DNA of 64,000 nucleotides from Verrucomicrobiota bacterium. GTDB taxonomy: Bacteria; Verrucomicrobiota; Verrucomicrobiia; Limisphaerales; JADLHS01. Position numbers and translations under genes: made by a program. Location: positions 1-64,000 of the forward strand of contig JAKQDQ010000041.1 in assembly GCA_029573725.1 (NCBI GenBank), written 5' to 3'. Positions 3 to 34,169 of this stretch are shown one piece after another (within the stretch, counting starts at the first letter, position 1; every line of letters starts with the position of its first letter). Under the pieces are notes generated by a model. The model was not told where the DNA came from. It worked only from the letters and a program-made list of their open reading frames with translations, and searched no databases.

Positions 3-3000
3 GTGAGCGGACGATACACGGTGCGGGTGAGTGTCTATTACGAGTATTGGGGTGAGTATCGGTTGCGGGTGAGTTTGGCGCCGGGGTGGTGGCAGTTGGA
101 GAGCGAGGACAACAACACCGTGGCCCAGGCCAATGCTCCCAGTTTTCAATGGGAGGGGAACGCCTTGGAAGCTCAACTGCTCGGTTACATACGTTACGGC
201 GACCCCGGCGATATATTTGCCCTGGGGAATCTGACGCCGGGGGCCGAGGTGCTTCTGCTGCTCCGTCAACCTTTACAGAGCAATCTTCAAGGGCTGCTCT
301 CCATCCTGGACAGCAGCGGTTCGGTGGTGGCCACGAGTGTCGTCGGGCAAACCAATCTGCTGTATAATATTCCGGCGGACGCGTCCGGGGCGTATTACGC
401 CAAAGTCCAGGCTTCAGCCGGGGAAGCCGGTTTATTGGCTCAGTACTTTTTGACAGTGCAGATCACCGATACCGTGCGTCCCTTTGTCACCAGCACGACA
501 TTGCCGTTGGAGGGAAGCACCAATACCACCTTCTTGAAGGGGTTCACGCTGGAGTTTTCCAAGGATTTGTTTCCCGCCAGCGTCAATAATCCGCTGCACT
601 ACGACCTGCGCACGACCGGACCGGACGGCATCTTTGACACTTCCGACGATCTTCACTGGGGATTGGCCACGGAACCCGGCTACGTCAGTGGACTGAGTGT
701 CACCTATGGGTTTGACACGCCGCTGCTCCCGGGAACGTATCGGCTGACCGCAACCACCAACATCCAGGACCGGTTCGAAAATGCCCTGCTGCCCTGGTCG
801 CGGCAGTTTACCGTGGAATCACTGCCCGGTCTTGAGGTGGAAAGTGAACCCAATAATGTGGCGGGCGCCGCCACCTGGCTGAACTTGAGCAGCAGCCAGC
901 CGAATCTGATTTCAGGCGGGGGACGAGGCTACCTGCGCAACGGCAGCGATGTGGATTTCTGGCAATTTGAGGCCGAGGCGGGGGATACGCTGGTTTTAGC
1001 CGCACAAAATCCGGGCGATCCGGGTTCCAGTGGTCTGAGTTATACGTTGTATCGCCCGAATGGCCAGGTGTTGTTCAGTCTGACGGCGGAAAACAACGGG
1101 CAATTACAAACGGCCCCGGTGATATTGGAGACCAATGGCTTGTACTCAGTGCGCGTGAGCACCTGGTATTCCTGGCTCTCCGAGTACCGCTTTCGAATTT
1201 CGCTTTACCGCAACGGTCAGGCGGTTGAGATCGAGCCGAACAACAACATCGCCACGGCCAATGCCTTGACGTTTACGGTTCCGCCTGACGCTCCGGCGAC
1301 GCGTGTGGCCGGCGTGGGGGGATATGTGAAAACGGCGGCCGACCTGGATTATTTCAATCTGGGCGTTGTCAACGCGGGCCAGACCGTCTTCCTGCGCACC
1401 CGGCAACCGGGCAGCAGCCCGCTGATCGGGGTCGTGAGTCTGTACAACGCCAACGGGGATTATGTGACGAAATTCAGCGGTCGCCCCGAGGACAGCGTCG
1501 GCGAGATGCGGATTGAGGAAACGGGGACGTATTACGCCATGGTGCGTTCGCGGGCCGATTCGGCGGGAGTGATGAGCGAGTATCTCCTGGACGTCATCAT
1601 CGCCCCGACGGAGGAGGTGGCGTTTCCGAATCTGCAGGTGACCGGTTTGACAATTCTCACGCCACTGGCCGGGCTCCAAAGTGGAGATCTTTTTTCCTAC
1701 ACTTACACGGTGGCCAATGTCGGCACCCTGGCGACACAGGTGGGGGCCTGGTTCGATCGCGTCTCGCTGTCGTTGAATCCCATCAGTGGTGTGGGAGACA
1801 TCGCGTTATCGCTGTTGTCGCATGCCGGAGTGCTGCAACCCGGCCAGAGCTATGTGGTGACCAATGTCGTGCAATTGCCGGACGGCATTCAAGGGAGCTA
1901 TTTTCTCGTGGCGTCGGCGGATTACACCGACACCGTGAATGAGTTCCTGTTTGAAGATGACAATGAAACCGCGACCGAATCGTCATTTGCGATTGCCCTG
2001 GCGCCATATCCCGATTTGGCGGTCGAAGATCTGCAGGTGAGCGGGCCGGACGGCGCGCAGGGTTACACGGTCAGCTGGCAGACAGCCAATCGCGGCACCG
2101 GCGCCGCGGCAACTTTCAAGGAACGTTTGCTGGTGCGGCATCAACCCACCGCCACCACGCTGTTGGAACAGACGTTCACTAACGCCGGTCCCTTTGCGGT
2201 CGATGCCGGGGTGTCGCGCCAGGCAACCTTTACGGCCACCGCGCCCGGGACGTATCTGGTGGAGGTTACGGCGGATCCGGAACAGGAGATTTTCGAGCAC
2301 GATGGGACCACGCCCCAGGCGGCCAGGTTGAACAACACCGCCAGCAGCACCTTTAACATCATTGCCAACCACCAATTGACGTTGAGCGCGATTCCGGCCC
2401 AGGCCGGCGTCTTGACGGGGGCCGGCACGTACCCGTCCGGGAGCAGTGTGACGGTGACGGCGACCCCCAATACCACACAAGCACCCTATTATTTTGCCAA
2501 CTGGCTGGAAAGCGGACTGGTCCGCAGCGCCAACGCCAGCTACACCTTCACGCTGTTGTCCGATGTGCATTTGCAAGCCGTTTTTGCCCTGCCCACCTAC
2601 ATCGTCAGTGTTTCCAACCAGCCGCCCGTCGCCGGGACGGTGATGGGCGGCGGCACGTACACCTGGGGGGCGACCAACACCCTGACGGCCATCCCGGCGT
2701 TTGGATATGAATTCAGCCACTGGACCGAAGGCAGCTCCTGGGCAACGGCGACGAATCTGGCCGGCACCAATGGGGTGTGGAGCCAGGTGGTGGCGAACAA
2801 TCGTTTCGTGCGCGCTCACTATCGGGAAGCCAATCTGACCCATGTGGTGACGACGGCGACCCAGCCGGGCGGTCTGGCCACGGTGTCGGGCGCAGGCAGT
2901 TATACGAACGGCCAAACGATCGAGATTACCGCTCCGGCCACGGTGACCAATGCGCCGCCGAATTATTATGCGTTCAATCGGTTTACTTTGAATGGTGCGC

Positions 3001-6000
3001 CTTATGCCAATACGAACAGCTTCACGAAGCTCTTCAGCACCACGGACCCGACCAATCTGAACTGGGTGGCGCATTATGACTTTGTTGACCGCACGCCGCC
3101 GGTGATCAGCGGGATCGCCGCCGTGCCGGCGGCGGGTTCCGCTCAAGTGACCTGGCTCACGGACAAGCCAGCCACTTCCCGCGTGGATTATGGGCTGACA
3201 ACGGCTTACGGACAGACAGCGAGCTCGGTGTTGTTGCGCACCAATCACAGCATCGCGTTGAGTGGCTTGGAGGTTTCCACCGAGTACCATTTCCGGGTGC
3301 GTTCCGTGGACGCCGCCGGCAATGAAACCGTGGGTGCCGATCAAAGCTTCACCACTCTGGCCCCGGCCGACCTGGTGGCAGGGGCGGTCACGGTGCCGGC
3401 GGCGGCGCAGTCGGGCACGCTGATTCCCATGACGCTGGTGGTTTCCAACGCCGGTCCCGGCGTGGCGACAGGGCCCTGGCACAACGCGGTATTGGTGGCG
3501 CCGACGAGCGACGGCGCCGGCGCACAAACCCTGGGGGTGTTCAACCTGAACCCTCCGGGCGGCTTGGCCCCGTTGGCATCGTTGGTCGTCACCCAGCATG
3601 TCATTGTTCCCGCGCTGGGTGCCGGAGGACATTATTTCGGGGTTTCGCTGGACAGCGGCAATCAGGTCGAGGAGGTGACCAAGACAAACAACGTCGCGTT
3701 TGCCGCGGCGCCCTTGAATATCGTGGCGGTGGATCTGCAGGTTGCGGCCCTCACCGTCCCGGCGGGGGCCCAATTTGGCCAGGGCATTTCAGTTTCGCTG
3801 GTGGTTTCCAACGCCGGCACCGCGCCGGCCTCGGCCCCGTGGTCGGATGCCCTTTATCTGTCCGCGTCGTCGAACTCGCTGGCAGGGGCCACCTGGCTGG
3901 CTGGCCCCGGCGCGTTGACGGTGCCCCTGGCCCCCGGAGCGCGTTACACCAACGAGTTGAATGTGACTTTGCCGCATACGACGGCCTCCCTGCCGGGCAC
4001 GTATTTTATCGTGGCCGTGGTGGATCAGCAGAAGGTCATTGCCGAATCGGATGAAAACAACAATCTGCGCAGCCAACCGATCGCGCTGACGCTGCCGCCG
4101 TTGCCGGATCTGCAGGTGACGCAAGTGCAGGGGCCGGCCAATGTGTCGCCGGGTGTGCCATTTGTTTTGCAGTGGGCCACCACCAATTCCGGGGCGGCCG
4201 CCGCGGTCGGGGACTGGAGTGAAACGATTTTCCTGGCCACCAACGCGGCCGGGACCGGGAATTTGCTGGAACTGGCCACGCTCCCGCGCTCCGGTGGTTT
4301 GCTCTCCGGCGGCTTTGTGAGCCATACCCAGGCGGTGGTGGTGCCGGTGACGGGACCGGCCGGCAACTTCTGGTTTGCCGTGCTGACGGACAGTCGTGAT
4401 CAAGTGCGCGAAGTTCAGGAGGCGAACAATCTAAGTGTGGCCACCAATCAAATCAGTGTGCCGGCCACCCTTCAGTTGCAATTGTCGGCGGCGCAGGTTG
4501 CGGAGGGCGCCTCGCAACCCCTCCTCGGGACCGTGACCCGGAACGGCGCGCGGACCGCGCCGTTGACGGTCACTCTGGAGCATGGCCGTCCGGACAAGTT
4601 GATCGTCCCCGCTCAGGTGACGATCCCGGCCGGTGCCGCTGCGGCGACCTTCAATCTCATTACCTTGCGGGACGGCATTGCCGACGGTGATCAACTGGTG
4701 ACGTTGCAGGCCACGGCAACCGGCCATGCGAGTGGCAGCGCCAATTTGCTGGTGGTGGACGTGGATCTGCCGCAACTGACCCTCCAGTTCAGCACCAATC
4801 AGGTGGTCAAAGGCAGCACCGTGGCCGGCACCGTCACGCGGGAGGGCGGAACGAACCAGAGCGTCGAAGTCAGTTTCAGCACTGCGGCGACTTCGCGCTT
4901 GATGCTGCCGCTGACCCTCACCATCCCGGCGGGACAGTTCAGCGCATCATTTGCCGCGCTCGCCATTGACAACACGTTTGTCGAAGCGGCCCAGTCCGTG
5001 ACGGCAACGGCGGCGGCGGAAGGTTATCAGCCGGGCAGCGCCGACCTGACGATACTTGACGGACGCTGGCCTGTGGTGACCCTGGCGATTGTTCCCCCGG
5101 TGTTTGCGGAGGGGGCCGGGGCGCAGGCTGCCCAGGCCACCTTGACGCGCTGGCCGGTTTCGCCGCGTCCGTTGGTGGTGGATTTGGAGAGCAGCAACAC
5201 CAATGCCGTGCGGGTGCCCCGCCAGGTCACCATTCCCGCCAACGAAACCAATCTCACCTTCAATGTGGCGGCGGTGGACAATTCCACGGTTGATGGGGAG
5301 AAATCGGTGACGGTGCAGTCCTGGTTTCTGGCGAGCGCGAGCAACGTGCGCCTGGCCGAAGGCGTTCCGGCCCAGGTAACGGTGACGGATGACGATGGTC
5401 CCACGCTGAGTGTTTCGTTCAATCGCGGGGTGGTGACCGAGGGACAGTCGCCCGCAGCGGTGGGCACCATCACGCGGAACACGGGCACCCAGACCAGTCT
5501 TGTGGTCCAGCTCGTTTCCAGCGACTTGACGGAATTGACGGTGCCGGCGACGGTCACCCTTCCGGTGGGGGCCAGCAGTGCCAGCTTCAATGTGACCTCC
5601 GTGGATGACGGGGTGACCGATGGCAACCAACTCGTGACCGTGACGGCGAGCGCCCCGGGCTTTACCTCCGGGAGCGGCCAGATCACGGTGACGGATGTCA
5701 ACCTGCCCGATCTGGTGATTGGCAGCGTTACGGCCCCGGCGAGTGCGACCACGGAAACCTACGTTTCACTTGGCTGGCAATTGTTGAACCAGGGCATCGT
5801 GGCCATGCCTTCCAACGCGATCGTGCAACGCATCTGGCTTTCCACCAATCAACTGATTGGTCCGCACAACGTGCTCGTCGGGCAGGCCGGGTTTAACGGG
5901 CCGCTGCCCGCCGGCGCCGCCATTGGGCAAAGCATCTCCGTCCGAATGCCCCAGGCCGCCGGCCAGTACTGGGTCATCGTGCAGGCGGACGCCATGGATG

Positions 6001-9000
6001 GCGCGGTGGAACTGGATGAGAATAACAATTTCCGGATTGCCAGCGCGCCGATGGTGGTGGGCGCGGCCTACGATGCGGTGGTGCAGACGTCGCTGGAAGC
6101 GGCGCCGGCCGGCACCCCGGTCCCGTTGAGCGGCAGTGCGTTTCTGCCGGGACACCCGGGGAGCAAGCTGCCCTTCGTCCTGGTGAACATCTCCGTGCGC
6201 GTTCGCGGCACGACACGGGTCATTTCCGCCCTGACCGATGCCGCCGGCAATTTTTCCACCACCTGGCAACCCCTGGCGGGTGAAGCGGGATTTTATGAAA
6301 TCGCCGCCAGCCACCCCGGAATTTCCCAGCCAGCGGTCCAGGACAGTTTTTATCTGCTGGGGATGAAGGCCACACCCGCCCAACCCTCGGTGCGCCTGAG
6401 CGAGGGGAGCAGCGTGGCGCAGACGCTCCAACTGCAGAACCTGGCCGATGTGCCCCTGTCGGAATTGACGGTGGCAGTGACAAATGTGCCCGCCAACCTG
6501 GTGGTGACTGCCGGCCTGCAAACCAATTACCTGGCGGGCGAGGCGAGCGTGGAGTTGAATTATGAAATCGCGGCCACGGACGCGTCCTTCACGTCCGGCA
6601 TCCTGGGCCTGCGCATCACCAGCGTGGAGGGCGCGGTGTTGGAGGTGCCGATCCGGGTCACGATTGATCCGTTGGTGCCCCGGTTGGTGGCCTACCCCGG
6701 CAGTTTGCTCGGCGGCATGAAACGGGGCGCGCAACGCATCGTGTCGTTCCAGATTGTAAATGCCGGCGGACTGGAGACCGGCCCGTTGACCCTTTCGCTG
6801 CCTCCGATTGCCTGGATGTCATTGGCTACGCCGAATCCTTTGCCCTCCCTGGCTCCGGGCCAAACCAACACGGTGACGCTGCAGTTGAATCCGCCCGAAG
6901 ATTTGCCCTTGCAGATGCACAACGGCAACCTGGCGATCAACGGCACCGGCACCGGGCTGTCCGTGCCCTTTGCCTTCCGCGCGCTGTCCGAGGCCAAGGG
7001 CGCGTTGCAGGTCATGGCCGCCGATGAATTCACTTACTACTCGGAAGGCGAGCCGCCCCTGACCAACGCCACCGTGCGTGTGCGTGATGCCGTCAGTCAT
7101 CAGGTAATCACCAACGGCGTCACCGATGCGGCGGGACGCTTCTGGGTGCCGGAGCTCATGGAGGGGTATTACGATGTGGAATTGGATGCCGAGCAGCATA
7201 ATGGCTACCGGGGCACGGTGTTTCTGGAAGCCGGCATTACCAACGAAGTGCGGGCGTTCCTGTCCTATCAGGCGGTGCGTTATACCTGGACGGTCGAGCG
7301 CATTGAAATTGAGGATCGTTACCGCATCACCATCGAAACCACGTTTGAAACGGTGGTGCCGGCGCCGGTGGTGACGCTGGACCCGCCCCTGTTGGATGTG
7401 AGCGATCTGACCGTGGTGGGGCAGACGAAGCAGGTGAACGTGAAATTTGAAAATCACGGTTTGATCGCGGCGGACGACGTGAAATGGAGTTTCAGTTCGC
7501 ATCCGTTCTACTCGATTGAACCGTTGATCACGGATCTGGGACGGATTCCCGCCAAGGGCAGTTTGACGATTCCAGTGACGTTGCGGCGCATTGCCGATTT
7601 CAACAGCCTGGCAGGGTTGTCGAGCGGCGGGGTCGCCGGACAGTCGTTGGTTACGGCGCAGACGGGGATTCCTTGCGGTATGCGTGGCGATGCTTCGTGG
7701 GGATTCGAGTGTGGAAATTTTCGAATCGGAGGCGGCACCGCCATAGCCGTCACCGGCGTGACGGGAGATTGCGGCGGCGGCGGTTGGGGCGGTGGTGGCG
7801 GCGGCGGTTGGGGCGGTTGGGGCGGTGGCGGCGGCGGTGGCAGTGGTGGCGGCGGTGTGAACTCCAGTTACTCCAGTCCCTCCATCGCGTTCAAGTTTGG
7901 GTGCGATCCGAAGTGTCTGATCCTCACCGCGCTGGGTTGTATTCCGGGGCCGATCGGTTGTTTTGCGAGCGGTTTTGCCTGTGGTGCCGGGTTGGGGGAA
8001 AATGGCATCACGTTGGGTACCGTGGCGGATTGCGCAGTGGGTGCCGCCGGGTGCTTGATTCCGGGTGCCGGCCTGCCTTCCTGTCTCTACTCGTTGGTGC
8101 GCTGCGTTAGCTCAGGCGGCGGTGGCAGCGGCGCGGGTGGCAGCAGCCCGGCAGCGAATCTCGTGACGCGGATTTATTCCTCTGATGGCGTTACCGGGCA
8201 ATCCGGGAGCGATGATTTGATAGATCATTACAAGCTGGGAGTCCGTGCCATGCTGGACGCCTTCAACGAATTGACCGGTGCGCCGGATGGAGTTTGGTTT
8301 AATCCTGCAGCTGATACGGCCACCGGAGATTGGTACGCCCGGTTCCAGGCCGCAGCCGTGGAAGGCTCGGCGGGCGACCGCTACGTGACTGCGGCGGAAC
8401 GAGAGGATTTGCTGGAGGGAGTGCTGCCGCCGGGAGTGCCGCTCGCGGAATTGCATCGCTTCCTGGATCGTTGGAATCGCACGTTGGACATGATTGCCCT
8501 GGATATTTCCCGTCCTGCCGACGCGCCGCCCGGGGCGAACTTGGACTTCATTGACCTGGTGGTGCTCAAGGAGAAGATGATGCTGGCCGCGCAGTATCAT
8601 GGCGAGGCCGTGGCCGCTGGATTCACCGATCCCATCAACGCCATTGTGGAAACCGCCCGGTTCCGGTCCGAGGCGGAAAGCGGCGGAGTTTGTGCCCGGG
8701 TCAAAATCAAACTGGATCAGGAAGCCGTGCTTAGCCGCGAAGCCTTCAAAGCCACTTTGGAGGTTGAAAACGGCACAACGGAACCCATCGAGGGGATTGC
8801 GATCACGGTCCGCGTGACCGATGGGCAGGGGAACGACCGCAACGAACTGTTTGGAATTGATGCGCCCGAGTTGAGCGGCTTGAGCGATGTGGCCGGGGGC
8901 GGGGTCGTGGCCGGCGGCGCCAAGGGCACCGCCAGCTGGGTTCTGGTGCCCACGGTGGACGCCGCCCCGCTGACGCCCACGGAGTATTTTGTCTCGGGCG

Positions 9001-12000
9001 AATTCCGTTATTCGCTCAATGGAGTGGTGGTGACCATGCCCCTGAGTCCGGTGGCCATCACCGTGAACCCCACCGCCCGGTTGACTCTGGATTATTTCCA
9101 TGAGCGGGACGTGTTTTCCGATGATCCGTTCACGGACGTGGTGGAACCGAGCATTCCCTACAACCTGGCCATCATGGTGAAAAACAACGGGGCGGGTGAG
9201 GCCAAAAATTTCCGGATCACTTCGGCGCAACCGGAGATTGTCGAAAACGAGAAGGGGCTGCTGATTGATTTTCAAATCATCGCCAGCGAGGTGCAGGGAC
9301 AAAATCTCACGCCCTCGCTCACGGTGGACTTTGGGACGATTCCCGCGGGGGGGATTGGTGTCGGCCGCTGGTTGTTGACCTCAACCTTGCAGGGGTTGTT
9401 CATTGATTACAGCGCCACCTTCGAGCACCTGGATAGTCACGGAAATCCGCGCACGTCGTTGATTGACGAGGTGCGCATTCACAAAATGAACCGCCTGGTC
9501 AAGGTGAACGGGCAACATGCGTTCCTGGTCAATGACATCCCGAATTTGCGGGACTTTCCAGACACCCTCTGGCTGAGCGACGGCTCCAGCAATCATGTGG
9601 AGGTAATCACCAATGGTGTGATTACCGGCGTGCTGTCCCCGCAAAATCTGGAAGTGCAACTCAGTGCGGCCTTCCCGGCGGGTTGGGGGTATTTGCGCAT
9701 TCCGGACCCGGGCAACGGGCAGTACCGCCTGAGTGCCGTCACGCGCGCGGACGGCCAGACCATCAATCTGGAGAACGCCTGGGTGACGGACCGGACCTTC
9801 CGCGGCCAGGGGACCCGGCCCATTCGGGAAAACATCCTGCACCTGCTCGATATGGGCGGTCCCGGTACCTACACCCTGGTGTATGCGCTGGTGGACCAGA
9901 CCGATGTCACGCCTCCGGTCAGTTCGGTAGCGGCCTTGCCGCCGCAGAGTAAAACGGCGTTTCCCGTCCAGTGGTCCGGACAGGACGTGGGAAGTGGAAT
10001 TGCAAATTACGACATTTATTACAGCGAGGACGGTGCTCCGTTCCAGCGATGGCTGGGTGGATCAAGCGCCGGAGCCGCCTTGTTCCAGGGCAGCCTGGGC
10101 AAGTCCTATGCCTTCTACAGCGTGGCGACGGATCGGGCCGGCAATCGGGAAGCCGCGCCGGCGGTGCCGCAGGCGCAAACTACGATCGCGTTTTCCAACC
10201 AGCCGCCAGTGTTGGCTCCGATCGCCGATCGGATTGTGGATGCGGGGCAGACGCTGAGTCTGACTCTCGCGGCGACGGATCCGGATGGGGACGGTCTCAG
10301 TTTCTCGCTGGGCAGCGGCACCCCGCCGGGTGTGGTGCTCAACCCGATCAGCGGGGCTTTGACGTGGGTGACCAGTCCCACCCAGGGCGGCACAACGAAT
10401 GCCATCACGGTTATAGCTCGTGACGGTGGGTTACCCCAGATGACCTCGACCCAAACTTTTCTGGTGGTGGTCAAGGCCATTAATCATGCGCCGCTACTGG
10501 CCCCGATAACTGACGTGGTGATTCCCGAAGGCCAGCTACTGACCTTTACCAATGTCGTGACGGATGCCGATCTGCCTGCCCAGCAGCTCACCTTCAGTTT
10601 GGGGCCGAACGCTCCCGCTGGCGCGAGCATCACGCCGCAAGATGGCGTCTTCAGTTGGCGTCCCGATGAAACGCAGGGTGGCACGAATTATTCGATAACG
10701 ATCATCGTGACCGACAACGGCACGCCTGCGTTGACGGCGAGTCAGAGTTTCCAAGTGGACGTGCTGAAGGTGTTGCCGTCCTTCTCGGTGGAAATCGGCT
10801 CTACCGCCGTGTTTTCGAATGGCGCTGGTGGAGTCGCCTTGACGCTGCATTCGCGGGCGGATGTGACCAGCTTGCGGCTGGTGCTGGCCGTGCAGGGACT
10901 CTTGCCGGATGACCCGGGTTCCTCGCGATTGACCAATTTTGCGCTTTCCGGGCTTAGCCCCGAGATTGGCGCCTCCAGTCTGAGCCTGCTGCCCTCAAAC
11001 CGGGTGGAAATCCTCCTGGGCGCACAGCCGGGCGCGTTCCTGCTCGGTGATTTCACGCTGGGACAGCTCAACTTCACGGCGCACTCCGCCCCTGCATCGG
11101 CCGTCGTGGCGTTGACGGGTGAACTGTTGTCGGGCGAGCGTCAAAGTGGCCTGCCCGGTGATGGTGCGGCGCAATCCGGCCGGGTTTTTGTGATCGGCGC
11201 TGAACCGATTTTAGATCTGCAGCGGGATGCCAGCAATCAGGTGCAACTGGTGCTCTATGCCGTTCCCCATCGGAATTATCTCATCGAGCGGACGTCGGTT
11301 GCCTCCCAACCCGCCCCATGGGTCACCGACGCGTTGGTCACGCCGACGGCGCTGCGCACGCTTCTACCTCCGCGCCCCACGACGGACGCCGCGGAGTTCT
11401 TCCGGGCCATGGCCTGGGGCGCATTGCGCATCCGGTCGGTCGGCAACAGTGTCCTGGTCGAGTGGCCGCTGGGATGCAGTCAATGCGTCCTGGAAGAATC
11501 ACCACAGCTGGGTGCCGCCGCGCATTGGACCCGGGTGGCATTGCCTCCCAGCGAGGTGAATGGCCATTATCAGGTGCTCCTGCCCGCCACCGGGACGCAG
11601 CGGTTTTTGCGTCTGGCGTTACCGGAGCTTGACCCGACGGACTTGAACATCCAGCTCGTGGGCACGAACGTGGTGGTGGAATGGTCCTTGTCCTGTGCCA
11701 ATTGTGTCCTTGAAGGCACTGCGGAGTTGGGGGCGTCCGCCCAATGGATTCCCGTGGGCGTAACCCCGACGGTGGTCAATGGGCGGTATCAAGTGATCCT
11801 GCCCGTCAGCGGGGCGAACCGGTTTCTGCGTTTGACGCAGGTGGAGCTTGACCCGACGGATTTGAACATCCAGCTCGTGGGCACGAACGTGGTGGTGGAA
11901 TGGTCCTTGTCCTGTGCCAATTGTGTCCTTGAAGGCACTGCGGAGTTGGGGGCGTCCGCCCAATGGATTCCCGTGGGCGCAACTCCGACGGTGGTCAATG

Positions 12001-12065
12001 GGCGGTATCAAGTGATCCTGCCCGCCGGCGGGGCGAACCGATTTCTGCGTTTGACCCCGCCTTAA
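3..12065 (+). CDS. Giant secreted multi-domain protein, 5'-partial (PPC/CARDB/Calx-beta/Ig-like modules)
   Basis: At least 4020 residues of an exported, presumably cell-surface or extracellular protein. The first residues (SGRYTVRVSV) match the end of an internal PPC-like repeat near residue 382 (NGLYSVRVST), so the window opens inside a PPC module and the real start lies upstream; the GTG at position 3 is only the first in-frame codon. Modules by eye: PPC-like about 30-155, 279-405 and 410-535; Ig-like about 155-270; CARDB-like about 545-785; InlB-B-repeat-like about 790-1025; fibronectin III-like 1030-1118; CARDB 1120-1485; four Calx-beta 1490-1900; CARDB 1902-2015; a carboxypeptidase-regulatory-like module near 2355; a Gly/Trp-rich linker 2589-2619; a Cys-rich hydrophobic stretch 2633-2700; cadherin/Ig-like domains 3400-3595; a cohesin-like region near 3600; and at least three C-terminal modules ending in FLRL. 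No catalytic domain is recognised. Adhesion or matrix scaffolding is inferred only from the architecture. Confidence 0.9.
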   Translation: MSGRYTVRVSVYYEYWGEYRLRVSLAPGWWQLESEDNNTVAQANAPSFQWEGNALEAQLLGYIRYGDPGDIFALGNLTPGAEVLLLLRQPLQSNLQGLLSILDSSGSVVATSVVGQTNLLYNIPADASGAYYAKVQASAGEAGLLAQYFLTVQITDTVRPFVTSTTLPLEGSTNTTFLKGFTLEFSKDLFPASVNNPLHYDLRTTGPDGIFDTSDDLHWGLATEPGYVSGLSVTYGFDTPLLPGTYRLTATTNIQDRFENALLPWSRQFTVESLPGLEVESEPNNVAGAATWLNLSSSQPNLISGGGRGYLRNGSDVDFWQFEAEAGDTLVLAAQNPGDPGSSGLSYTLYRPNGQVLFSLTAENNGQLQTAPVILETNGLYSVRVSTWYSWLSEYRFRISLYRNGQAVEIEPNNNIATANALTFTVPPDAPATRVAGVGGYVKTAADLDYFNLGVVNAGQTVFLRTRQPGSSPLIGVVSLYNANGDYVTKFSGRPEDSVGEMRIEETGTYYAMVRSRADSAGVMSEYLLDVIIAPTEEVAFPNLQVTGLTILTPLAGLQSGDLFSYTYTVANVGTLATQVGAWFDRVSLSLNPISGVGDIALSLLSHAGVLQPGQSYVVTNVVQLPDGIQGSYFLVASADYTDTVNEFLFEDDNETATESSFAIALAPYPDLAVEDLQVSGPDGAQGYTVSWQTANRGTGAAATFKERLLVRHQPTATTLLEQTFTNAGPFAVDAGVSRQATFTATAPGTYLVEVTADPEQEIFEHDGTTPQAARLNNTASSTFNIIANHQLTLSAIPAQAGVLTGAGTYPSGSSVTVTATPNTTQAPYYFANWLESGLVRSANASYTFTLLSDVHLQAVFALPTYIVSVSNQPPVAGTVMGGGTYTWGATNTLTAIPAFGYEFSHWTEGSSWATATNLAGTNGVWSQVVANNRFVRAHYREANLTHVVTTATQPGGLATVSGAGSYTNGQTIEITAPATVTNAPPNYYAFNRFTLNGAPYANTNSFTKLFSTTDPTNLNWVAHYDFVDRTPPVISGIAAVPAAGSAQVTWLTDKPATSRVDYGLTTAYGQTASSVLLRTNHSIALSGLEVSTEYHFRVRSVDAAGNETVGADQSFTTLAPADLVAGAVTVPAAAQSGTLIPMTLVVSNAGPGVATGPWHNAVLVAPTSDGAGAQTLGVFNLNPPGGLAPLASLVVTQHVIVPALGAGGHYFGVSLDSGNQVEEVTKTNNVAFAAAPLNIVAVDLQVAALTVPAGAQFGQGISVSLVVSNAGTAPASAPWSDALYLSASSNSLAGATWLAGPGALTVPLAPGARYTNELNVTLPHTTASLPGTYFIVAVVDQQKVIAESDENNNLRSQPIALTLPPLPDLQVTQVQGPANVSPGVPFVLQWATTNSGAAAAVGDWSETIFLATNAAGTGNLLELATLPRSGGLLSGGFVSHTQAVVVPVTGPAGNFWFAVLTDSRDQVREVQEANNLSVATNQISVPATLQLQLSAAQVAEGASQPLLGTVTRNGARTAPLTVTLEHGRPDKLIVPAQVTIPAGAAAATFNLITLRDGIADGDQLVTLQATATGHASGSANLLVVDVDLPQLTLQFSTNQVVKGSTVAGTVTREGGTNQSVEVSFSTAATSRLMLPLTLTIPAGQFSASFAALAIDNTFVEAAQSVTATAAAEGYQPGSADLTILDGRWPVVTLAIVPPVFAEGAGAQAAQATLTRWPVSPRPLVVDLESSNTNAVRVPRQVTIPANETNLTFNVAAVDNSTVDGEKSVTVQSWFLASASNVRLAEGVPAQVTVTDDDGPTLSVSFNRGVVTEGQSPAAVGTITRNTGTQTSLVVQLVSSDLTELTVPATVTLPVGASSASFNVTSVDDGVTDGNQLVTVTASAPGFTSGSGQITVTDVNLPDLVIGSVTAPASATTETYVSLGWQLLNQGIVAMPSNAIVQRIWLSTNQLIGPHNVLVGQAGFNGPLPAGAAIGQSISVRMPQAAGQYWVIVQADAMDGAVELDENNNFRIASAPMVVGAAYDAVVQTSLEAAPAGTPVPLSGSAFLPGHPGSKLPFVLVNISVRVRGTTRVISALTDAAGNFSTTWQPLAGEAGFYEIAASHPGISQPAVQDSFYLLGMKATPAQPSVRLSEGSSVAQTLQLQNLADVPLSELTVAVTNVPANLVVTAGLQTNYLAGEASVELNYEIAATDASFTSGILGLRITSVEGAVLEVPIRVTIDPLVPRLVAYPGSLLGGMKRGAQRIVSFQIVNAGGLETGPLTLSLPPIAWMSLATPNPLPSLAPGQTNTVTLQLNPPEDLPLQMHNGNLAINGTGTGLSVPFAFRALSEAKGALQVMAADEFTYYSEGEPPLTNATVRVRDAVSHQVITNGVTDAAGRFWVPELMEGYYDVELDAEQHNGYRGTVFLEAGITNEVRAFLSYQAVRYTWTVERIEIEDRYRITIETTFETVVPAPVVTLDPPLLDVSDLTVVGQTKQVNVKFENHGLIAADDVKWSFSSHPFYSIEPLITDLGRIPAKGSLTIPVTLRRIADFNSLAGLSSGGVAGQSLVTAQTGIPCGMRGDASWGFECGNFRIGGGTAIAVTGVTGDCGGGGWGGGGGGGWGGWGGGGGGGSGGGGVNSSYSSPSIAFKFGCDPKCLILTALGCIPGPIGCFASGFACGAGLGENGITLGTVADCAVGAAGCLIPGAGLPSCLYSLVRCVSSGGGGSGAGGSSPAANLVTRIYSSDGVTGQSGSDDLIDHYKLGVRAMLDAFNELTGAPDGVWFNPAADTATGDWYARFQAAAVEGSAGDRYVTAAEREDLLEGVLPPGVPLAELHRFLDRWNRTLDMIALDISRPADAPPGANLDFIDLVVLKEKMMLAAQYHGEAVAAGFTDPINAIVETARFRSEAESGGVCARVKIKLDQEAVLSREAFKATLEVENGTTEPIEGIAITVRVTDGQGNDRNELFGIDAPELSGLSDVAGGGVVAGGAKGTASWVLVPTVDAAPLTPTEYFVSGEFRYSLNGVVVTMPLSPVAITVNPTARLTLDYFHERDVFSDDPFTDVVEPSIPYNLAIMVKNNGAGEAKNFRITSAQPEIVENEKGLLIDFQIIASEVQGQNLTPSLTVDFGTIPAGGIGVGRWLLTSTLQGLFIDYSATFEHLDSHGNPRTSLIDEVRIHKMNRLVKVNGQHAFLVNDIPNLRDFPDTLWLSDGSSNHVEVITNGVITGVLSPQNLEVQLSAAFPAGWGYLRIPDPGNGQYRLSAVTRADGQTINLENAWVTDRTFRGQGTRPIRENILHLLDMGGPGTYTLVYALVDQTDVTPPVSSVAALPPQSKTAFPVQWSGQDVGSGIANYDIYYSEDGAPFQRWLGGSSAGAALFQGSLGKSYAFYSVATDRAGNREAAPAVPQAQTTIAFSNQPPVLAPIADRIVDAGQTLSLTLAATDPDGDGLSFSLGSGTPPGVVLNPISGALTWVTSPTQGGTTNAITVIARDGGLPQMTSTQTFLVVVKAINHAPLLAPITDVVIPEGQLLTFTNVVTDADLPAQQLTFSLGPNAPAGASITPQDGVFSWRPDETQGGTNYSITIIVTDNGTPALTASQSFQVDVLKVLPSFSVEIGSTAVFSNGAGGVALTLHSRADVTSLRLVLAVQGLLPDDPGSSRLTNFALSGLSPEIGASSLSLLPSNRVEILLGAQPGAFLLGDFTLGQLNFTAHSAPASAVVALTGELLSGERQSGLPGDGAAQSGRVFVIGAEPILDLQRDASNQVQLVLYAVPHRNYLIERTSVASQPAPWVTDALVTPTALRTLLPPRPTTDAAEFFRAMAWGALRIRSVGNSVLVEWPLGCSQCVLEESPQLGAAAHWTRVALPPSEVNGHYQVLLPATGTQRFLRLALPELDPTDLNIQLVGTNVVVEWSLSCANCVLEGTAELGASAQWIPVGVTPTVVNGRYQVILPVSGANRFLRLTQVELDPTDLNIQLVGTNVVVEWSLSCANCVLEGTAELGASAQWIPVGATPTVVNGRYQVILPAGGANRFLRLTPP
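11625..12062 (+). repeat. 219-bp in-frame tandem duplication at the 3' end of the giant gene
   Basis: Two copies, 11625-11843 and 11844-12062, each encode 73 residues (3875-3947 and 3948-4020) that begin ELDPTDLNIQ and end RFLRLT plus a short tail. Reading them against each other I count about six base differences in the first 205 or so positions and a cluster of differences in the last nine. A more diverged copy precedes them (about residues 3800-3874). The near identity indicates a recent duplication. Confidence 0.9.
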
Positions 12066-25885: not shown

Positions 25886-27604
25886 GTGGCTGAGAAAGAC
25901 GACTATTTGATTGATATGCTGGTGGATTTGGGGTTCGTGACCCCGGATCAGGTGGCGCAAGCCCGCCAGGAAGCGGAGGCGTCCGGGGTGGGCGTGGTGG
26001 ACTTCATGGTCGCCAACCAGATCGTGCGCCCCGAAGACGTCACTCAGGCCAAAGCCGCGCACTTCGGTGCGGAAGTGGTCAATCTGTCCGCGATGCAGAT
26101 TGCGGATGACGTCATCGCCACGGTGCGCCGGGACATCGCCAAGAAGTACCGCGTCATTCCCGTTTTTAAACATGAAAACACGCTGACCGTGGCGCTGGCC
26201 GATCCGTCCGACATTGCCACCATTGACACGCTCAGTCACTTGTTGCACGTGGACCTGGTGGTGCAGGTGGCTTCCGATGTGGACATCGAGGCGGCCTTGA
26301 ACAAGTACTATGGCGGCCGGGGGGACACGGCGCTGGACACGATGATCCAGGAGATCACGCGGGGCGAGGTGGAAATTGCCGCGCCCACCCAGGACATCAC
26401 CGCCGGCGGCGACAGCGCCACGGCGGACGGAGACGCGCCGCTGATCAAGCTGGTGAACCAGATCATCATTGACGCCTTCAAGATGCGCGCCTCGGATATT
26501 CATTTGGAACCGCTGGCGAAGCGGTTCCGGCTGCGCTTCCGCATTGACGGAATGATGCACGAGGTGAAGGGGCCGCCCAAACGGCTGCAGCCGGCGATCA
26601 TTGCGCGCCTGAAAATCCAGTCCAACATGTCCATTGCCGAACACCGGATCCCCCAGGACGGCCGGATTCAAACCACCGTGGGCGGCGGGAAGCTGATTGA
26701 TTTGCGCGTTTCCTGTCTGCCGACGCAGCACGGTGAATCCATCGTGATGCGTATTTTGGACAAGGAGGGATTGCGCGTCGGGCTCGCGGAGCTGGGGTAT
26801 CTGGCGGATGACCAGCAATTGATTGAAAAGTTGATCAGCCTGCCGGACGGATTGTTTCTGGTCACCGGCCCCACCGGCTCCGGCAAGACCACCACGTTGT
26901 ATTCCTGCCTGCACTTCATCAATCGCCCCGACCGGAAGATCATCACGGTGGAGGACCCGGTGGAGTACGTGCTGGCGGGCATCAATCAAGTGCAGGTGAA
27001 TGAAATCGTGGGGCTGACGTTTTCCGCCGCGCTGCGCTCGATCCTGCGCCAGGCGCCCAACATCATCATGATCGGGGAAATCCGCGATTTGGAGACCGCC
27101 TCCATCGCCATCAACGCGTCCCTGACGGGACATCTGGTGTTTTCGACCCTGCACACGAACGACGCGCCCGGCGCGGTGACCCGCCTGATTGACATTGGGG
27201 TCAAGCCCTTCCTGGTGGCCTCTTCGACCCGCGCCCTGATGGCCCAGCGGCTGGTGCGCAAAGTCTGCGCCAAATGTGGCGCGCCCTGGACCCCGCCGGA
27301 CAACGAACTGAAGGCACTGGACATTGATGCGACGGCCGCCGGGGGCGCGACCTTCCGCAAGGGCAAGGGTTGCGACAACTGCTCCGGAACAGGGTGCCGC
27401 GGCCGGATGGGGATTTTTGAGATTTTTGTCATTGATGACGAGGCGCGCAAGCTGATTTACGACAAGGTGCCAACGGCGGTGCTCCGGTCCCGGGCGCGTG
27501 AGATGGGGATGCGCACCCTGCGCGAAGACGGCATTCGCAAGGTGCTGGCGGGATTGACGACGCCGGACGAGGTCATCCGCGCGACCGTGGGTGATGAGAA
27601 CTGA
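25886..27604 (+). CDS. PilB/GspE-type assembly ATPase, copy 1
   Basis: 572 residues. Hexameric cytoplasmic ATPase that powers pilus or pseudopilus extension. An N-terminal MshEN/T2SSE_N-type domain covers about residues 1-150 (LIDMLVDLGFVTPDQVAQAR, FKHENTLTVALADPSD). The ATPase domain has ASDIHLEP, Walker [14 protein letters not shown] near residue 328, the Asp box and Walker B in IIMIGEIRDLETA near 395, and the His box [18 protein letters not shown] tetracysteine zinc module is formed by CAKCG and CDNCSGTGCRG, as in extension ATPases and not in PilT. The start is GTG; no Shine-Dalgarno is visible. It is the first gene of a same-strand series. Confidence 0.93.
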   Translation: MAEKDDYLIDMLVDLGFVTPDQVAQARQEAEASGVGVVDFMVANQIVRPEDVTQAKAAHFGAEVVNLSAMQIADDVIATVRRDIAKKYRVIPVFKHENTLTVALADPSDIATIDTLSHLLHVDLVVQVASDVDIEAALNKYYGGRGDTALDTMIQEITRGEVEIAAPTQDITAGGDSATADGDAPLIKLVNQIIIDAFKMRASDIHLEPLAKRFRLRFRIDGMMHEVKGPPKRLQPAIIARLKIQSNMSIAEHRIPQDGRIQTTVGGGKLIDLRVSCLPTQHGESIVMRILDKEGLRVGLAELGYLADDQQLIEKLISLPDGLFLVTGPTGSGKTTTLYSCLHFINRPDRKIITVEDPVEYVLAGINQVQVNEIVGLTFSAALRSILRQAPNIIMIGEIRDLETASIAINASLTGHLVFSTLHTNDAPGAVTRLIDIGVKPFLVASSTRALMAQRLVRKVCAKCGAPWTPPDNELKALDIDATAAGGATFRKGKGCDNCSGTGCRGRMGIFEIFVIDDEARKLIYDKVPTAVLRSRAREMGMRTLREDGIRKVLAGLTTPDEVIRATVGDEN

Positions 27605-27649
27605 CGACCGCGCTTAACGAAACAGGAAACGCTCACGACTTTTTAGCCC

Positions 27650-28750
27650 ATGGCCTACTCGATGTCTGATTTGTTGCAGCTGGTGGTGTCTGAAGGTTCT
27701 TCCGACCTGCACATCCGTGTCGGCATTCCGCCCACCATCCGCGTCCACGGGATTTTGCACCGCGTGGAAGGACCGCCCTGCACCCCGGAGGATGCGGAAG
27801 AATTGATGCGCAGCATTACGTCCGACGATCACGTCCAGCAAATCCGCGAACGCGGTGGCGCGGACTTCGGCTTTGCCTTTGGCGACGCGGCGCGGTTTCG
27901 CGTCAGCGCCTTCAAGGAAAAGGGCAATTTTGGCCTGGTATTGCGGCAGATTCCGAACAAGCTGCTCACGATGGAGCAGATCGGCATTCCGCCGTCCACG
28001 CGGGAGTTGCTGTACAAACCCCGGGGGCTGGTCCTGGTCACTGGTCCCACCGGCTCGGGCAAGACCACCACGCTGGCGTCGATGATCAATATCATCAACG
28101 AAGAACGGGATGACGCCCACATCATCACCATCGAGGACCCGATCGAGTATTACCACCATCACAAAAAAGCGGTGGTCACCCAGCGCGAGGTGCACGTGGA
28201 CGTGCCGAATTTTGCCGAAGGATTGCGCCGCGCGCTGCGTCAGGACCCGGACATCATTCTGGTGGGAGAAATGCGGGATCTGGAGACGATCGAGGCGGCG
28301 GTGACGGCGGCGGAAACCGGACACCTCGTCTTCGGCACGCTGCATACCACCGGTGCGGCCAAGACCATTGACCGGCTGGTGAATGCGTTCCCGATCAACC
28401 AGCAGGAAACCATCCGCATTCAGCTTTCAACCGTTTTGCAGGCGGTGATTTCGCAATTGCTGATTCCGCGCGTGGACAAGCCCGGTCGGGTGGCGGTTTT
28501 TGAAGTCATGATCAACACGCCCTCGATTTCCGCCCTCATTCGCGATAATAAAACGTTCCGCCTGCAATCCGACATTCAAACCGGGGCGAAGTACGGCATG
28601 GTGACGCTGGACAGCTTTCTCCTGGACAAATACCAATTGGGCATGATTTCGCGCGACGAAGTCATCACGAAGTCGCAGGACCCGGTCACGATCCAGCAAA
28701 AACTGCAGGAATTGGAGCTGGCGCAGGCCGTGGGCGCCGACAAGAAATAA
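27650..28750 (+). CDS. pilT: PilT retraction-type ATPase
   Basis: 366 residues, slightly longer than the typical 340-350. PilT drives pilus retraction. It has the PilT N-terminal PAS-like domain ([35 protein letters not shown]), Walker [14 protein letters not shown] near residue 132, Walker B in [20 protein letters not shown], and the PilT-specific C-terminal AxxNLIRE-like segment read here as [18 protein letters not shown], followed by [16 protein letters not shown]. It lacks the tetracysteine module of PilB proteins. It is 45 bp after the first ATPase gene and 9 bp before the second. Presence of PilT argues that the locus makes a retractable type IV pilus or a dual-use machine, not only a type II secretion pseudopilus. 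Confidence 0.93.
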
Positions 28751-28759
28751 TTTTCAGCC

Positions 28760-30472
28760 ATGGCCGAAGAAATCTCAAATCCGCTGCTGGCGCTCGTGCG
28801 GGAGCAGGGGCTGGTGGATGACCTGCAATACGAGGAGGTGGTCTCCGAACTCAAGCGCAGCGGCACCTCCGTGTTCCAGCTGCTGCAGGACTTCGAGATC
28901 CTGGATGCGGATTCGATCCTTCAGGCGATGTCGAATCACCTGGGGGCGGAGGTGGTGTCCCTCAAAGGCCGGGAGATTCCGCCCAGTGTGATTGAGACGA
29001 TCCCCGCGGACAAGGCGAAGATGTATCGCTGTGTGCCGGTGGCGCTGGAGGGCGGCACGCTGCAGGTGGCGTTCGAAGACCCGCTGGATCCGAGCAAGAT
29101 CGACGAGCTGGGGTTCGTGGTGAAGAAGGACATCCAGCTGGTCCTGGCCGATCCCGCCGAGATCAACACCGCGCTCGATCATTACTATGGGGAGGAGACG
29201 AGCGAGGACGTCAGCAAACTGCTCGAAGCCCTGGGCGGGGACGATAAAATCACGGAGGAAGCCGTCACGGCGGCGGAATCCGAAAGTGACGAGGATCTGG
29301 TGGCGGGGCTGGCCAACGAGGCGCCAATTGTGCGGTTCGTGAATCTGGTCCTGCTGCAGGCCGTGAAAGACCGGGCCAGCGACATTCATTTCGAGCCGTT
29401 CGAGACCGAGTTCCGGATCCGCTACCGGGTGGACGGGGCCTTGTACGAGATGTCGCCGCCGCCGAAACACCTGGCGTTGCCGGTGGTGTCGCGCATCAAG
29501 GTCATGGCGAACCTCAACATTTCCGAGCGCCGCCTGCCACAGGACGGCCGCATCAATTACAAGCTGGGCAAGCGCGAGATTGATTTGCGCGTCTCCACGC
29601 TGCCGACGCAGTTTGGCGAGTCGGTCGTGTTGCGCGTGCTGGATCGCTCGGCGATCAATCTGGATCTGGACTCGCTGGGCTTCCCCAAGAGCACGCTGGA
29701 TTTTGTCAGTGAGGTGATCCAGCGGCCGAACGGGATTTTCGTGGTCACGGGTCCGACCGGCTCCGGCAAGACGACAACGCTCTACTCGTGTTTGCGCCGG
29801 GTCAACACGATTGATTCGAAATTGTTGACGGCCGAGGACCCGGTGGAATTTGACATTGAAGGCATCATGCAGGTGGCGATCAACGAGGCCCAGGGCATGA
29901 CTTTCGGCAAGGCCCTGCGCTCCTTCCTGCGGCAGGACCCGGACATCATCATGGTGGGGGAAATGCGCGACCTGGAAACCGCGCAAATTGCCATTCAAGC
30001 CTCGCTGACCGGCCACCTGGTGTTGAGCACGCTCCATACGAATGACGCACCGGGAGCGGTCACCCGTCTGGTGGACATGGGCACGGAACCGTTTCTGGTT
30101 TCCTCCACTTTGATGGCGGTGCTGGCGCAGCGGCTGGTGCGGCGCATTTGCAAGGAGTGCAAGACGCCGTTTGAACCGACGGACCAGCAATTGTCCATGT
30201 TGAACCTCTCACCGCACGATCTGGGCGACAAAGTGTTCTATTATGGTCGCGGCTGCTCGGCCTGCAATGACACCGGCTACCGGGGACGAAAGGGGATCTA
30301 CGAATTGCTGGTCTGCGGCGACACCATCCGGTCCATGATTACCGAGCGCGCGCCCACGGTGGTGTTGCGGCAGAAGGCGGTCGAGTTGGGGATGGTGACG
30401 TTGCGCGAGGACGGCTTGCGCAGCATCTTTGACGGTGATACTACTATCGAAGAAGTCGTGAAATACACTTAA
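28760..30472 (+). CDS. PilB/GspE-type assembly ATPase, copy 2
   Basis: 570 residues, a paralogue of the gene at 25886. N-terminal MshEN-like domain ([38 protein letters not shown]), an acidic linker near residues 150-185, then the ATPase: [20 protein letters not shown], Walker [14 protein letters not shown], Walker B in [13 protein letters not shown], His box [17 protein letters not shown], and the zinc tetracysteine CKEC and [11 protein letters not shown]. Both copies therefore keep all catalytic and zinc residues I can check. Lying directly before pilC (13-bp gap), this copy is the best candidate for the partner of that platform protein; the role of the first copy is open. Confidence 0.93.
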
Positions 30473-30485
30473 CCCGGAGTTTGTT

Positions 30486-31796
30486 ATGCCCAAGTTCAGC
30501 TACGTGGCGATGGATCAAAAGGGGAAGGAACAGAAGGGGGTCATCGAAGTCGCCAGCCAAAATGAGGCGATCGGCCGCGTCAAGGAGATGGGCTTGTTCC
30601 CCACCAAGATTGTCGAAGTCACCACGACAAAGGCTGCGAAGGGCGCCCCGAAAAAAAGCGGCGGCAGGGCCGGCGCAGGAAAGAAAAAGGGCGGGGTCAA
30701 CATCAACATCAAAATTCCCGGTCTGGGCGGACGGGTTAAATCCAAGGTTCTCACCACGTTCACCCGCCAGCTGGCCACGCTGGTGGATGCCGGTTTGCCG
30801 CTGCTGCGCGGCATGCGGGTGCTGGAAAAACAGGAGCGCAACGCCACCTTGAAAAGCACCATCGGTGATCTGGCCCTGTCGGTTGAGGGCGGCAGCACGT
30901 TTTCCGAAGCCCTGGCGCAACATCCCAAAATCTTCAACCGGCTTTACGTCAACATGGTGAAAGCCGGCGAGCTGGGCGGCGTCCTGGAGGTGGTGCTGAA
31001 TCGTCTGGCCGAATTCCAGGAAAAGGCCCAGAAGATCAAGGGAAAGGTGATCGCCGCCATGTTTTACCCGGTCGCCGTGCTGGTGGTGGCAATTGCGATT
31101 TTGGGGGTGCTGATCGTGGTGGTGATTCCCAAGTTCAAGGAGGTCTTCGCCGGACTGGGTGAGGGACGTCCCTTGCCCGCGTTCACCACGCTGGTCTTGA
31201 ATATCAGCGACACGGTTCGCCACAACATGGTGGCCACTGCGATTGTGGTTGTCAGCGCCGTGGTCGTTTTCCTGCTGGCGATAAAAACCAAAATCGGCCG
31301 GCGCATCTGGGATAAAATCAAGCTGAAGATGCCGGTGCTGGGACCGGTCATCAGCAAGGTGGCCATCTCCCGCTTCACGCGTACGCTCGGCACGCTGGTG
31401 AGCAGCGGTGTGCCCATTCTGCAGGCGTTGACCATCGTGCGGGATACCTCGGGCAATGTCATCGTTGCCAACGCCGTGATGGCGGTCCATGAAAGCGTGA
31501 AGGAAGGCGAAACCATTACGGCCCCGCTGGAAGCTTCCGGCGTCTTTCCTCCGATGGTCATCTCCATGGTGGACGTGGGTGAACAAACCGGTGCGCTGCC
31601 GGAGATGATGATGAAAATCGCTGACAACTATGATGATGAAGTGGATAACGCCGTGGCGGCCATGACCTCGTTGTTGGAACCCATCATGATCATCTTTCTG
31701 GCGGTCATCGTCGGAAGCATCGTTATCGCGATGTTTCTGCCGCTGATTGACCTCATGAACAATCTGGGTGGCGATGGCGGCGGCGGGGCGGATTAA
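30486..31796 (+). CDS. pilC: PilC/GspF inner-membrane platform protein
   Basis: 436 residues. The polytopic inner-membrane platform that binds the assembly ATPase and the pilin. N-terminal MPKFSYVAMDQKGKEQKGVI is typical. Residues 45-75 form an unusual Lys/Gly/Ala-rich linker. Two T2SSF domains follow: TFTRQLATLVDAGLPLLRG with YVNMVKAGELGGVLE, and ISRFTRTLGTLVSSGVPILQ with VISMVDVGEQTGALPEMM. Membrane segments are at about 196-222 (AAMFYPVAVLVVAIAILGVL), 245-265 and 400-425 (PIMIIFLAVIVGSIVIAMFL). GGAG lies upstream of the ATG. The C terminus is Gly-rich. It is followed by a 138-bp gap that carries a promoter-like sequence for the next unit. Confidence 0.93.
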   Translation: MPKFSYVAMDQKGKEQKGVIEVASQNEAIGRVKEMGLFPTKIVEVTTTKAAKGAPKKSGGRAGAGKKKGGVNINIKIPGLGGRVKSKVLTTFTRQLATLVDAGLPLLRGMRVLEKQERNATLKSTIGDLALSVEGGSTFSEALAQHPKIFNRLYVNMVKAGELGGVLEVVLNRLAEFQEKAQKIKGKVIAAMFYPVAVLVVAIAILGVLIVVVIPKFKEVFAGLGEGRPLPAFTTLVLNISDTVRHNMVATAIVVVSAVVVFLLAIKTKIGRRIWDKIKLKMPVLGPVISKVAISRFTRTLGTLVSSGVPILQALTIVRDTSGNVIVANAVMAVHESVKEGETITAPLEASGVFPPMVISMVDVGEQTGALPEMMMKIADNYDDEVDNAVAAMTSLLEPIMIIFLAVIVGSIVIAMFLPLIDLMNNLGGDGGGGAD

Positions 31797-31860
31797 CCCG
31801 TATTCGGGCCACCCGGTTGGACGTCAGTTGCGATCCTTGGAAAACACTTTAAAAAAACTG

Positions 31861-31888
31861 TTGACGATTTGCCGGTGTGATGTAAATA
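31861..31888 (+). promoter_or_regulatory. Candidate promoter for the TA-like pair and pseudopilin cassette
   Basis: TTGACG (31861-31866), 16-bp spacer, TAAATA (31883-31888), 46 bp before the ATG of the BrnT-like gene, in an AT-rich patch (31840-31930) that contrasts with the GC-rich surroundings. If the BrnA-like protein autoregulates as in known systems, its operator should be here. Confidence 0.45.
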
Positions 31889-31934
31889 CAAAGTAAAGAC
31901 ATTGCATGGGCGAATTATTTACAATTAACTCGAA

Positions 31935-32219
31935 ATGGAGTTCGACTGGAACAATCCGCCTTTTGAAATGGATGGTTCTTTGACGTCGCGAGAGATTGAG
32001 GAATCCTTCGAGGACCCGTTTGCGATCAAATTATTGCCGGATTCCGCGCGGTTCAGCGCCCAAGCCCGGTATTTCAATCTGGGCCGGTCGGCGGGTGGTG
32101 AAGGAATCTTCAGCCTGTATCGCACGAACGGGAAGTTAATCCGCGTGATTTTCGCGCGACCGTTCCAGCCGGAAGAAAGATTTTTCTATCAGCGGAAGGT
32201 GGACCAGACGTTGTCCTGA
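31935..32219 (+). CDS. BrnT-like toxin-family protein
   Basis: 94 residues. BrnT proteins are RelE-fold ribonuclease toxins paired with BrnA antitoxins. The match is in the middle and end: FEDPFAIKLLPDSARFSA, RYFNLGRSAGGEGIFSLYR, and RVIFARPFQPEERFFYQ, which line up with the family's FDDP, RF..IG.S..G..L.VVYT and IRIISARPA.RRER..Y. The N-terminal part is unusual: FDWNNPPFEMDGSLTSREIE lacks the conserved N..KHGV element of typical BrnT. This could be a toxin that has lost activity or been adapted as a regulator, or a diverged subfamily. It is followed 22 bp later by a BrnA-like gene, which supports the family call. The toxin-first order is that of brnTA. Confidence 0.75.
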   Translation: MEFDWNNPPFEMDGSLTSREIEESFEDPFAIKLLPDSARFSAQARYFNLGRSAGGEGIFSLYRTNGKLIRVIFARPFQPEERFFYQRKVDQTLS

Positions 32220-32241
32220 CGGTACCGGAGACGCGAGGCGC

Positions 32242-32520: not shown

Positions 32521-32532
32521 TTTAAACAGGCC

Positions 32533-33216: not shown

Positions 33217-33220
33217 CGTG

Positions 33221-33412
33221 ATGAAAGCCGAGCCGAAGATTTTGCAAAATCGCGCGAGCGTGGCCCTGCCGATCCAGTGGCAGGAGGCGGTGTGGTTCCC
33301 CCCGGTGCTGTTGCGGTCGCGTTTGGGTGGTGTGCGCCGGCGGCCCGTGTTTTGGCCGCACCAGATCATTACGGACCCCACCACTTGCCAGGCCCGCGCC
33401 ATTGATATTTAA
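33221..33412 (+). CDS. Small ORF between two pseudopilin genes, unknown
   Basis: 63 residues starting MKAEPKILQNRASVALPIQW, basic, with three Trp (EAVWFPPVLLRSRLGG, VFWPHQIITD). No family recognised, no signal or membrane segment. It fills the only 205-bp gap in this gene series, beginning 5 bp after the previous stop and ending 9 bp before the next start, which favours a real gene over chance. The composition, however, is also compatible with non-coding DNA. Confidence 0.4.
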   Translation: MKAEPKILQNRASVALPIQWQEAVWFPPVLLRSRLGGVRRRPVFWPHQIITDPTTCQARAIDI

Positions 33413-33421
33413 TCGTTGTCT

Positions 33422-34165: not shown

Positions 34166-34169
34166 GGTT

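Follow-up and report, generated by a model that had tools for sequence, protein, structure and literature searches.

To our knowledge, how Verrucomicrobiota bring their large enzymes and adhesins through the outer membrane, or onto it, is largely an open matter. The window analysed here, namely the first 64 kb of contig C57 in a 4.28-Mb assembly of 187 contigs, raises the question of whether large exported proteins of this phylum share a C-terminal domain that sorts or anchors them. An earlier note on this DNA had pointed to modules of similar design at the ends of a giant protein, a subtilase and a secreted 696-residue protein, and had proposed a sorting or anchoring role with the logic of type IX secretion. 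Translation and profile search located the copies on all three proteins where they had been noticed, and profile search found no further module ORFs in the 64-kb window. The features are given below, with module coordinates taken from a profile that was trimmed at the R-L of the end motif and that included the window copies.

3 to 12065, plus strand: giant host ORF of 4020 aa, with CARDB and other sandwich domains and the module at its C-terminal end
11205 to 11405, plus strand: giant ORF, degenerate fourth module copy, a weak match (E = 0.03 with the core profile, E = 0.0083 with a profile lacking the window copies)
11418 to 11615, plus strand: giant ORF, module copy 1, profile match
11631 to 11834, plus strand: giant ORF, module copy 2, profile match
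11847 to 12053, plus strand: giant ORF, module copy 3, terminal with the stop 3 residues on, profile match, modelled
40607 to 47887, plus strand: S8 subtilase host ORF of 2426 aa, with LamG and P-domains followed by two modules at the end
47417 to 47623, plus strand: subtilase, module copy 1, profile match
47651 to 47872, plus strand: subtilase, module copy 2, terminal with the stop 4 residues on, profile match
58153 to 60243, minus strand: 696-aa host ORF with a textbook N-terminal signal peptide, MKKTLLTTAVIALVTGYAGA
58162 to 58383, minus strand: 696-aa protein, divergent module copy, terminal with the stop 2 residues on, profile match

The giant ORF is truncated at its 5' end by the start of the contig, and its last two copies (11631 to 12053, plus strand) are 96% identical in protein, as expected of a recent tandem duplication. 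The N-terminus of the subtilase contains a hydrophobic segment in which no clear cleavage site can be recognised. Adjoining the gene of the 696-aa protein, and overlapping the upstream end of its longest frame, is a two-component regulator of 997 aa (60478 to 63471, plus strand) that combines Reg_prop propeller repeats with a Y_Y_Y domain and a histidine kinase.

The likeness among these C-terminal ends proved to be real, but calling it similar design understated it, for the copies are homologous members of one family. When training was limited to copies lying beyond the window, the resulting profile gave E = 6.5e-23, 1.1e-22 and 9.4e-6 for the three ORFs concerned, and a profile built from the window copies alone recovered 46 of 62 other copies (E <= 0.01). 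Two-fold cross-validation recovered 67 of 68 copies while none of 505 shuffled sequences scored with the module profile, which rules out chance likeness. Judged by these profile comparisons, all the modules are homologous. This holds even for the copy of the 696-aa protein, which is the weakest member of the family and whose structural model, with a pLDDT of only 74, is unreliable.

Searching the whole genome with profiles made from the copies, as the earlier note had suggested, revealed a real family far larger than the three proteins it had named. A 14-copy profile gave 73 genome matches at a permissive limit, and a 68-copy profile gave 108 at E <= 0.01. When host ORFs taken from the surrounding DNA were searched for all copies, at least 101 distinct module ORFs were obtained, 100 of them with a core hit. 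The module is about 68 residues long. Across 98 aligned tails, the end motif [FY][FY]R[LVI] has F or Y at its first position in 99%, mostly Y or F at the second and Arg in 96%, followed by L, V or I; a mid-module Trp is present in 90%, and the third strand carries L or V followed by Q or E. The signature first described from the window (V.WE, Q/LE, W and a final aromatic-aromatic-Arg-Leu) therefore agrees closely with that of the family.

The module is nearly always C-terminal. In 93 of 100 ORFs, no more than 15 residues lie between its last copy and the stop codon, and in 83 no more than 6 (mode, 3 residues); about 50 of 55 copies from other genomes end within 10 residues of the stop. Among the seven non-terminal ORFs of this genome, six (L076, L077, L250, L260, L261 and L268) have clearly internal copies only, which may be genuine or may reflect frameshifts or read-through ORFs, while the seventh, L259, ends in a diverged module copy that the profile shortened; six ORFs of this genome carry multiple copies. 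The module profile was trained on terminal copies yet detects internal ones, and therefore the terminal excess is not a search artefact. Nor does any small sandwich domain come last in this genome, as fn3 domains, used as a control for that possibility, took the last place in just 1 of the 11 cases that could be read.

Most carriers also appear to be exported, as had been anticipated. Signal-peptide-like N-termini were found in 51 of 58 module ORFs compared with 50 of 135 further long ORFs drawn from these loci and from the window, a contrast that carries more weight than the raw fractions because the signal-peptide rule is crude (a heuristic that picks the most favourable start within 160 codons). 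When starts were restricted to ATG, the same rule was passed by 65 of 96 module ORFs. The carriers are long, with a median of about 915 aa, and beta-rich, and short ORFs of about 150 to 280 aa bear the module as well. Their passengers are very diverse, including subtilase, LTD/CotH, LamG, Ig, CBM6, PATR and also PA14 domains, and the same tail is thus common to many unrelated exported proteins (101 ORFs).

The terminal copy of the giant ORF was modelled with AlphaFold2 together with 24 relatives, giving six strands with a mean pLDDT of 91.8; in the model the strands span residues 4-9, 12-18, 25-29, 46-48, 51-57 and 64-68, and the last one is formed by RFLRL. Foldseek returned no match in the PDB better than E = 0.059. 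The best VIA-align rows were fn3/cytokine-receptor domains (Z 6.7, rmsd 2.9, 67 residues) and CBM56 (Z 6.1), Z values of a size that may reflect only a common arrangement. No type IX CTD was among the best Foldseek and VIA-align rows listed, which excludes nothing. The model thus suggests an Ig/fn3-like sandwich with one strand fewer than usual, and the missing strand would correspond to fn3 strand G. Folds of the fn3 type are often merely adhesive, which counts against a sorting function. The module could be an accessory adhesive or binding beta-sandwich of the fn3/CBM type that spread onto the ends of secreted proteins by fusion and binds glycans or the cell's own matrix with no role in export. 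Such an origin would agree with fn3/cytokine-receptor domains and CBM56 as the closest folds, with the LamG, CBM6, Ig and PA14 domains of the passengers and with the tandem copies, which are also seen among binding modules. However, binding modules have no need for the last position, and the fn3 domains of this very genome rarely take it (1 of 11). We consider this explanation rather unlikely.

The extreme C-terminus turned out to be constrained as well. As a rule, 2 to 6 residues separate [FY][FY]R[LVI] from the end of the protein. Pro occupies the last position in 49 of 93 module ORFs (53%) compared with 26 of 213 controls (12%; Fisher p 2.7e-13), with equal overall Pro content in the two sets (6.6 versus 6.4%); among 51 ORFs from other genomes the share with a final Pro is 49%. 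A hydrophobic last residue occurs in only 6 of the 93, most of the ORFs ending in Pro or a polar residue. This terminal proline is absent from the earlier note. From sequence, the pattern fits either a signal that is read out or a shield from proteases that read C-termini. The latter would make the module a C-terminal cap, a small fold closing long, beta-rich passengers and protecting them from periplasmic proteases that recognise nonpolar C-termini. Both the rarity of hydrophobic last residues and the length and beta-rich nature of the carriers are in keeping with a cap. By contrast, the module is also found on the short ORFs and on unrelated passengers, and its near-invariant Arg-Leu exceeds what a cap would need, making this an improbable explanation.

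A known family does not account for the module. In a Pfam and NCBIfam scan of 68 copies only scattered hits at chance level were obtained and no model covered the module, so that this explanation was rejected; PF00041 (fn3) matched 1 of the 68 copies at E = 0.052, short of its curated cut-off. A PDB sequence search gave weak matches to glucanase/chitosanase domains and fn3 domains. Searches of the open-access literature turned up no description of the module, and an earlier account may exist outside it. No copy among the 68 matched PF07589, the tails ending in FFRLxx without a hydrophobic helix.

Type IX secretion, to which the module had been likened, was considered separately. Its tails are described as Ig-like seven-strand domains restricted to Bacteroidota (PMC10202324). 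The module might be a divergent type IX CTD served by a cryptic type IX machine in Verrucomicrobiota, since position is the same, length is similar and both have an Ig-like sandwich, in the module a predicted one (PMC10202324). However, PF18962, TIGR04183 and TIGR04131 matched 0 of 68 copies, and a search of the genome for Por_Secre_tail was negative at E <= 1; membership was rejected on these profiles. SprA_N had no match in 288 genomes, though the control genomes were equally silent, and type IX systems are described as confined to another phylum. We therefore regard a type IX origin as very improbable. The two sequence-level objections named in advance, frequent copies in the middle of proteins and presence in cytoplasmic proteins, were checked and not borne out. 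Of the role first proposed for the module, the sorting or anchoring part is supported by the C-terminal position, the signal peptides and the exchange with PEP-CTERM described below, while the likeness to type IX extends only to logic and general fold.

The genome offers a natural swap test, in which passengers of PEP-CTERM proteins were compared with those of module proteins. It encodes one exosortase and has 18 PEP-CTERM matches, 17 of them over the cut-off. Contig C150 encodes both L175, a PEP-CTERM protein of 297 aa, and L069, a module protein of 721 aa, and the two are 61% identical across 233 aa. In L175 the likeness stops at '..ELLVLGGPNAQGILP', followed by 'IPEPATVSLGLVGWLAFAGMWRRRRG-stop', and in L069 at '..EIAALGGPKAGGIFP', followed by the module; the L175 tail scores 19.7 bits against a cut-off of 20.7 and has the full PEP, the hydrophobic stretch and the basic end. 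L175 is also paired with the module protein L085, and L158, the top-scoring PEP-CTERM protein, is related in the same manner to the module proteins L108, L243 and L253. In the L158 pairs and in L175/L085, the module begins 10 to 24 residues past the point where homology ceases, while other pairs of PEP-CTERM and module proteins have additional domains in between. None of the PEP-CTERM proteins found in the genome carries a module. Both kinds of tail are also present in the window, where a PEP-CTERM protein is encoded at 51213 to 52004 (plus strand) with its tail at 51927 to 51995.

Such alternation is the pattern expected of interchangeable anchors, and as computational evidence it provides the strongest functional hint that the module belongs to the sorting or anchoring class of tails. 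A cap would not predict that homologous passengers with PEP-CTERM do without the module, and an adhesive sandwich would leave unexplained the exclusion from PEP-CTERM proteins as well as the constrained last residues and the terminal proline.

Across the phylum, at least 127 of 288 genomes matched the module (E <= 0.001, with the best 19 candidates scored per genome), and 161 of 288 were without a match among the candidates scored, indicating a patchy spread. Matches per genome range up to at least 19, and the phylum counts are lower bounds. The named relatives retrieved with a consensus query were nearly all labelled Verrucomicrobia, which suggests that the host bacterium belongs to Verrucomicrobiota. 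A mobile-element origin was rejected upon finding no match in plasmid, phage and viral-contig collections, a search of limited sensitivity with one consensus query. Comparison of CotH/LTD proteins across the phylum was only partly informative, their ends being the module, diverged versions of it or another block. CotH proteins at four loci in other genomes of the phylum, all of one family (L196, L197, L198 and L208), share a different end block, '..GVYTA.V.G....G..L(V/L)E(V/I)YE(V/I)..', perhaps another C-terminal module.

Exosortase was found in 124 of 127 module-positive genomes versus 90 of 161 module-negative ones, both sets resting on the lower-bound scoring of the module. This co-occurrence is strong and probably caused by lineage, with lifestyle or mechanism as the other candidate causes. 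It is no evidence of a joint mechanism because related genomes are not independent and because one entire genus within the same class encodes exosortase and lacks the module. Exosortase was thus rejected as a partner, the module also being without PEP-CTERM features.

A partner encoded nearby, in the style of PorP/SprF for type B CTDs, was rejected too, the commonest family adjoining module genes occurring at 6 of 99 loci as a raw count. This family is prepilin-like and sits at L055, L059, L063, L104, L245 and L247. In the window, a type IV pilus/type II-like cluster (25886 to 40552, plus strand) lies directly upstream of the module-bearing subtilase, which starts 54 bases past the end of the ORF following the type IV pilus/type II-like and prepilin-like genes. 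The cluster comprises two PilB/GspE ATPases together with PilT and PilC/GspF, a group of four or five prepilin-like proteins, some of which resemble Verru_Chthon cassette proteins B, C and D, and an ORF of 1375 aa whose N-terminal part includes a hydrophobic segment. Five secretins are encoded in the genome. They and the pilus-like genes upstream of the subtilase are no more than leads towards a receptor.

We favour, as the somewhat probable reading, that the module is a domain which sorts or anchors exported Verrucomicrobiota proteins by their C-terminus, and it probably serves as a hitherto undescribed tag by which proteins come to lie outside the cell. Carriers would reach the periplasm via the heuristically predicted signal peptide, and there the last 68 or so residues, going by sequence and model, would fold into a six-strand Ig/fn3-like sandwich ending in [FY][FY]R[LVI]. 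A putative outer-membrane receptor or translocon may then recognise the folded end, upon which the passenger would be put or held on the surface, or released. This route would run parallel to the PEP-CTERM/exosortase route, the two alternating on homologous passengers, and the module would resemble a type IX secretion tail in its mode of action without being one. Against a sorting role stand the six ORFs with internal copies only, the six with multiple copies, the patchy spread in the phylum and the other ends of some CotH homologues. More tentatively, and with doubt prevailing, the module could belong to an as yet undescribed system of Verrucomicrobiota that is dedicated to outer-membrane secretion or surface attachment, evolved independently of type IX, parallels PEP-CTERM/exosortase and reads a six-strand C-terminal domain on up to about 100 proteins per genome. 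This genome has no type IX tails, and neither Pfam nor NCBIfam covers the module. A common tail would gather about 100 proteins per genome that are so far uncharacterised into a single class of cargo open to testing. The module may also be a handle for finding the machinery, as PEP-CTERM was for exosortase.

Compared with known systems, fn3 (PF00041) is the nearest fold class by structure comparison and has similar strand signatures, whereas the module is distinguished by its length of about 68 residues, its six predicted strands and its almost always C-terminal position, which the fn3 domains of the genome do not share. GlyGly-CTERM with rhombosortase is another many-to-one C-terminal processing signal of Gram-negative bacteria (PMC3237569), and in this respect the putative tag resembles it. 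The GlyGly-CTERM tail is short and rich in Gly and includes a transmembrane helix; the module has neither the Gly-rich stretch nor the helix. PEP-CTERM/exosortase (PF07589/PF09721), first noticed in Verrucomicrobium spinosum (PMC1569441), is like the module in being C-terminal on proteins with signal peptides, in its many occurrences per genome and in occupying the same slot on homologous passengers; by contrast, the module is a folded domain without the Pro-Glu-Pro motif, the transmembrane helix and the basic cluster. Relative to the type A CTD of type IX secretion (PF18962/TIGR04183), the module has six predicted strands rather than seven, ends in [FY][FY]R[LVI]x(2-6), belongs to another phylum and lacks a profile match, and no type IX machinery was found with it, SprA having been tested without a working positive control. 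The two nevertheless resemble each other in that one small C-terminal sandwich serves many unrelated exported passengers, with a signal peptide at the opposite end and tight spacing to the stop codon.
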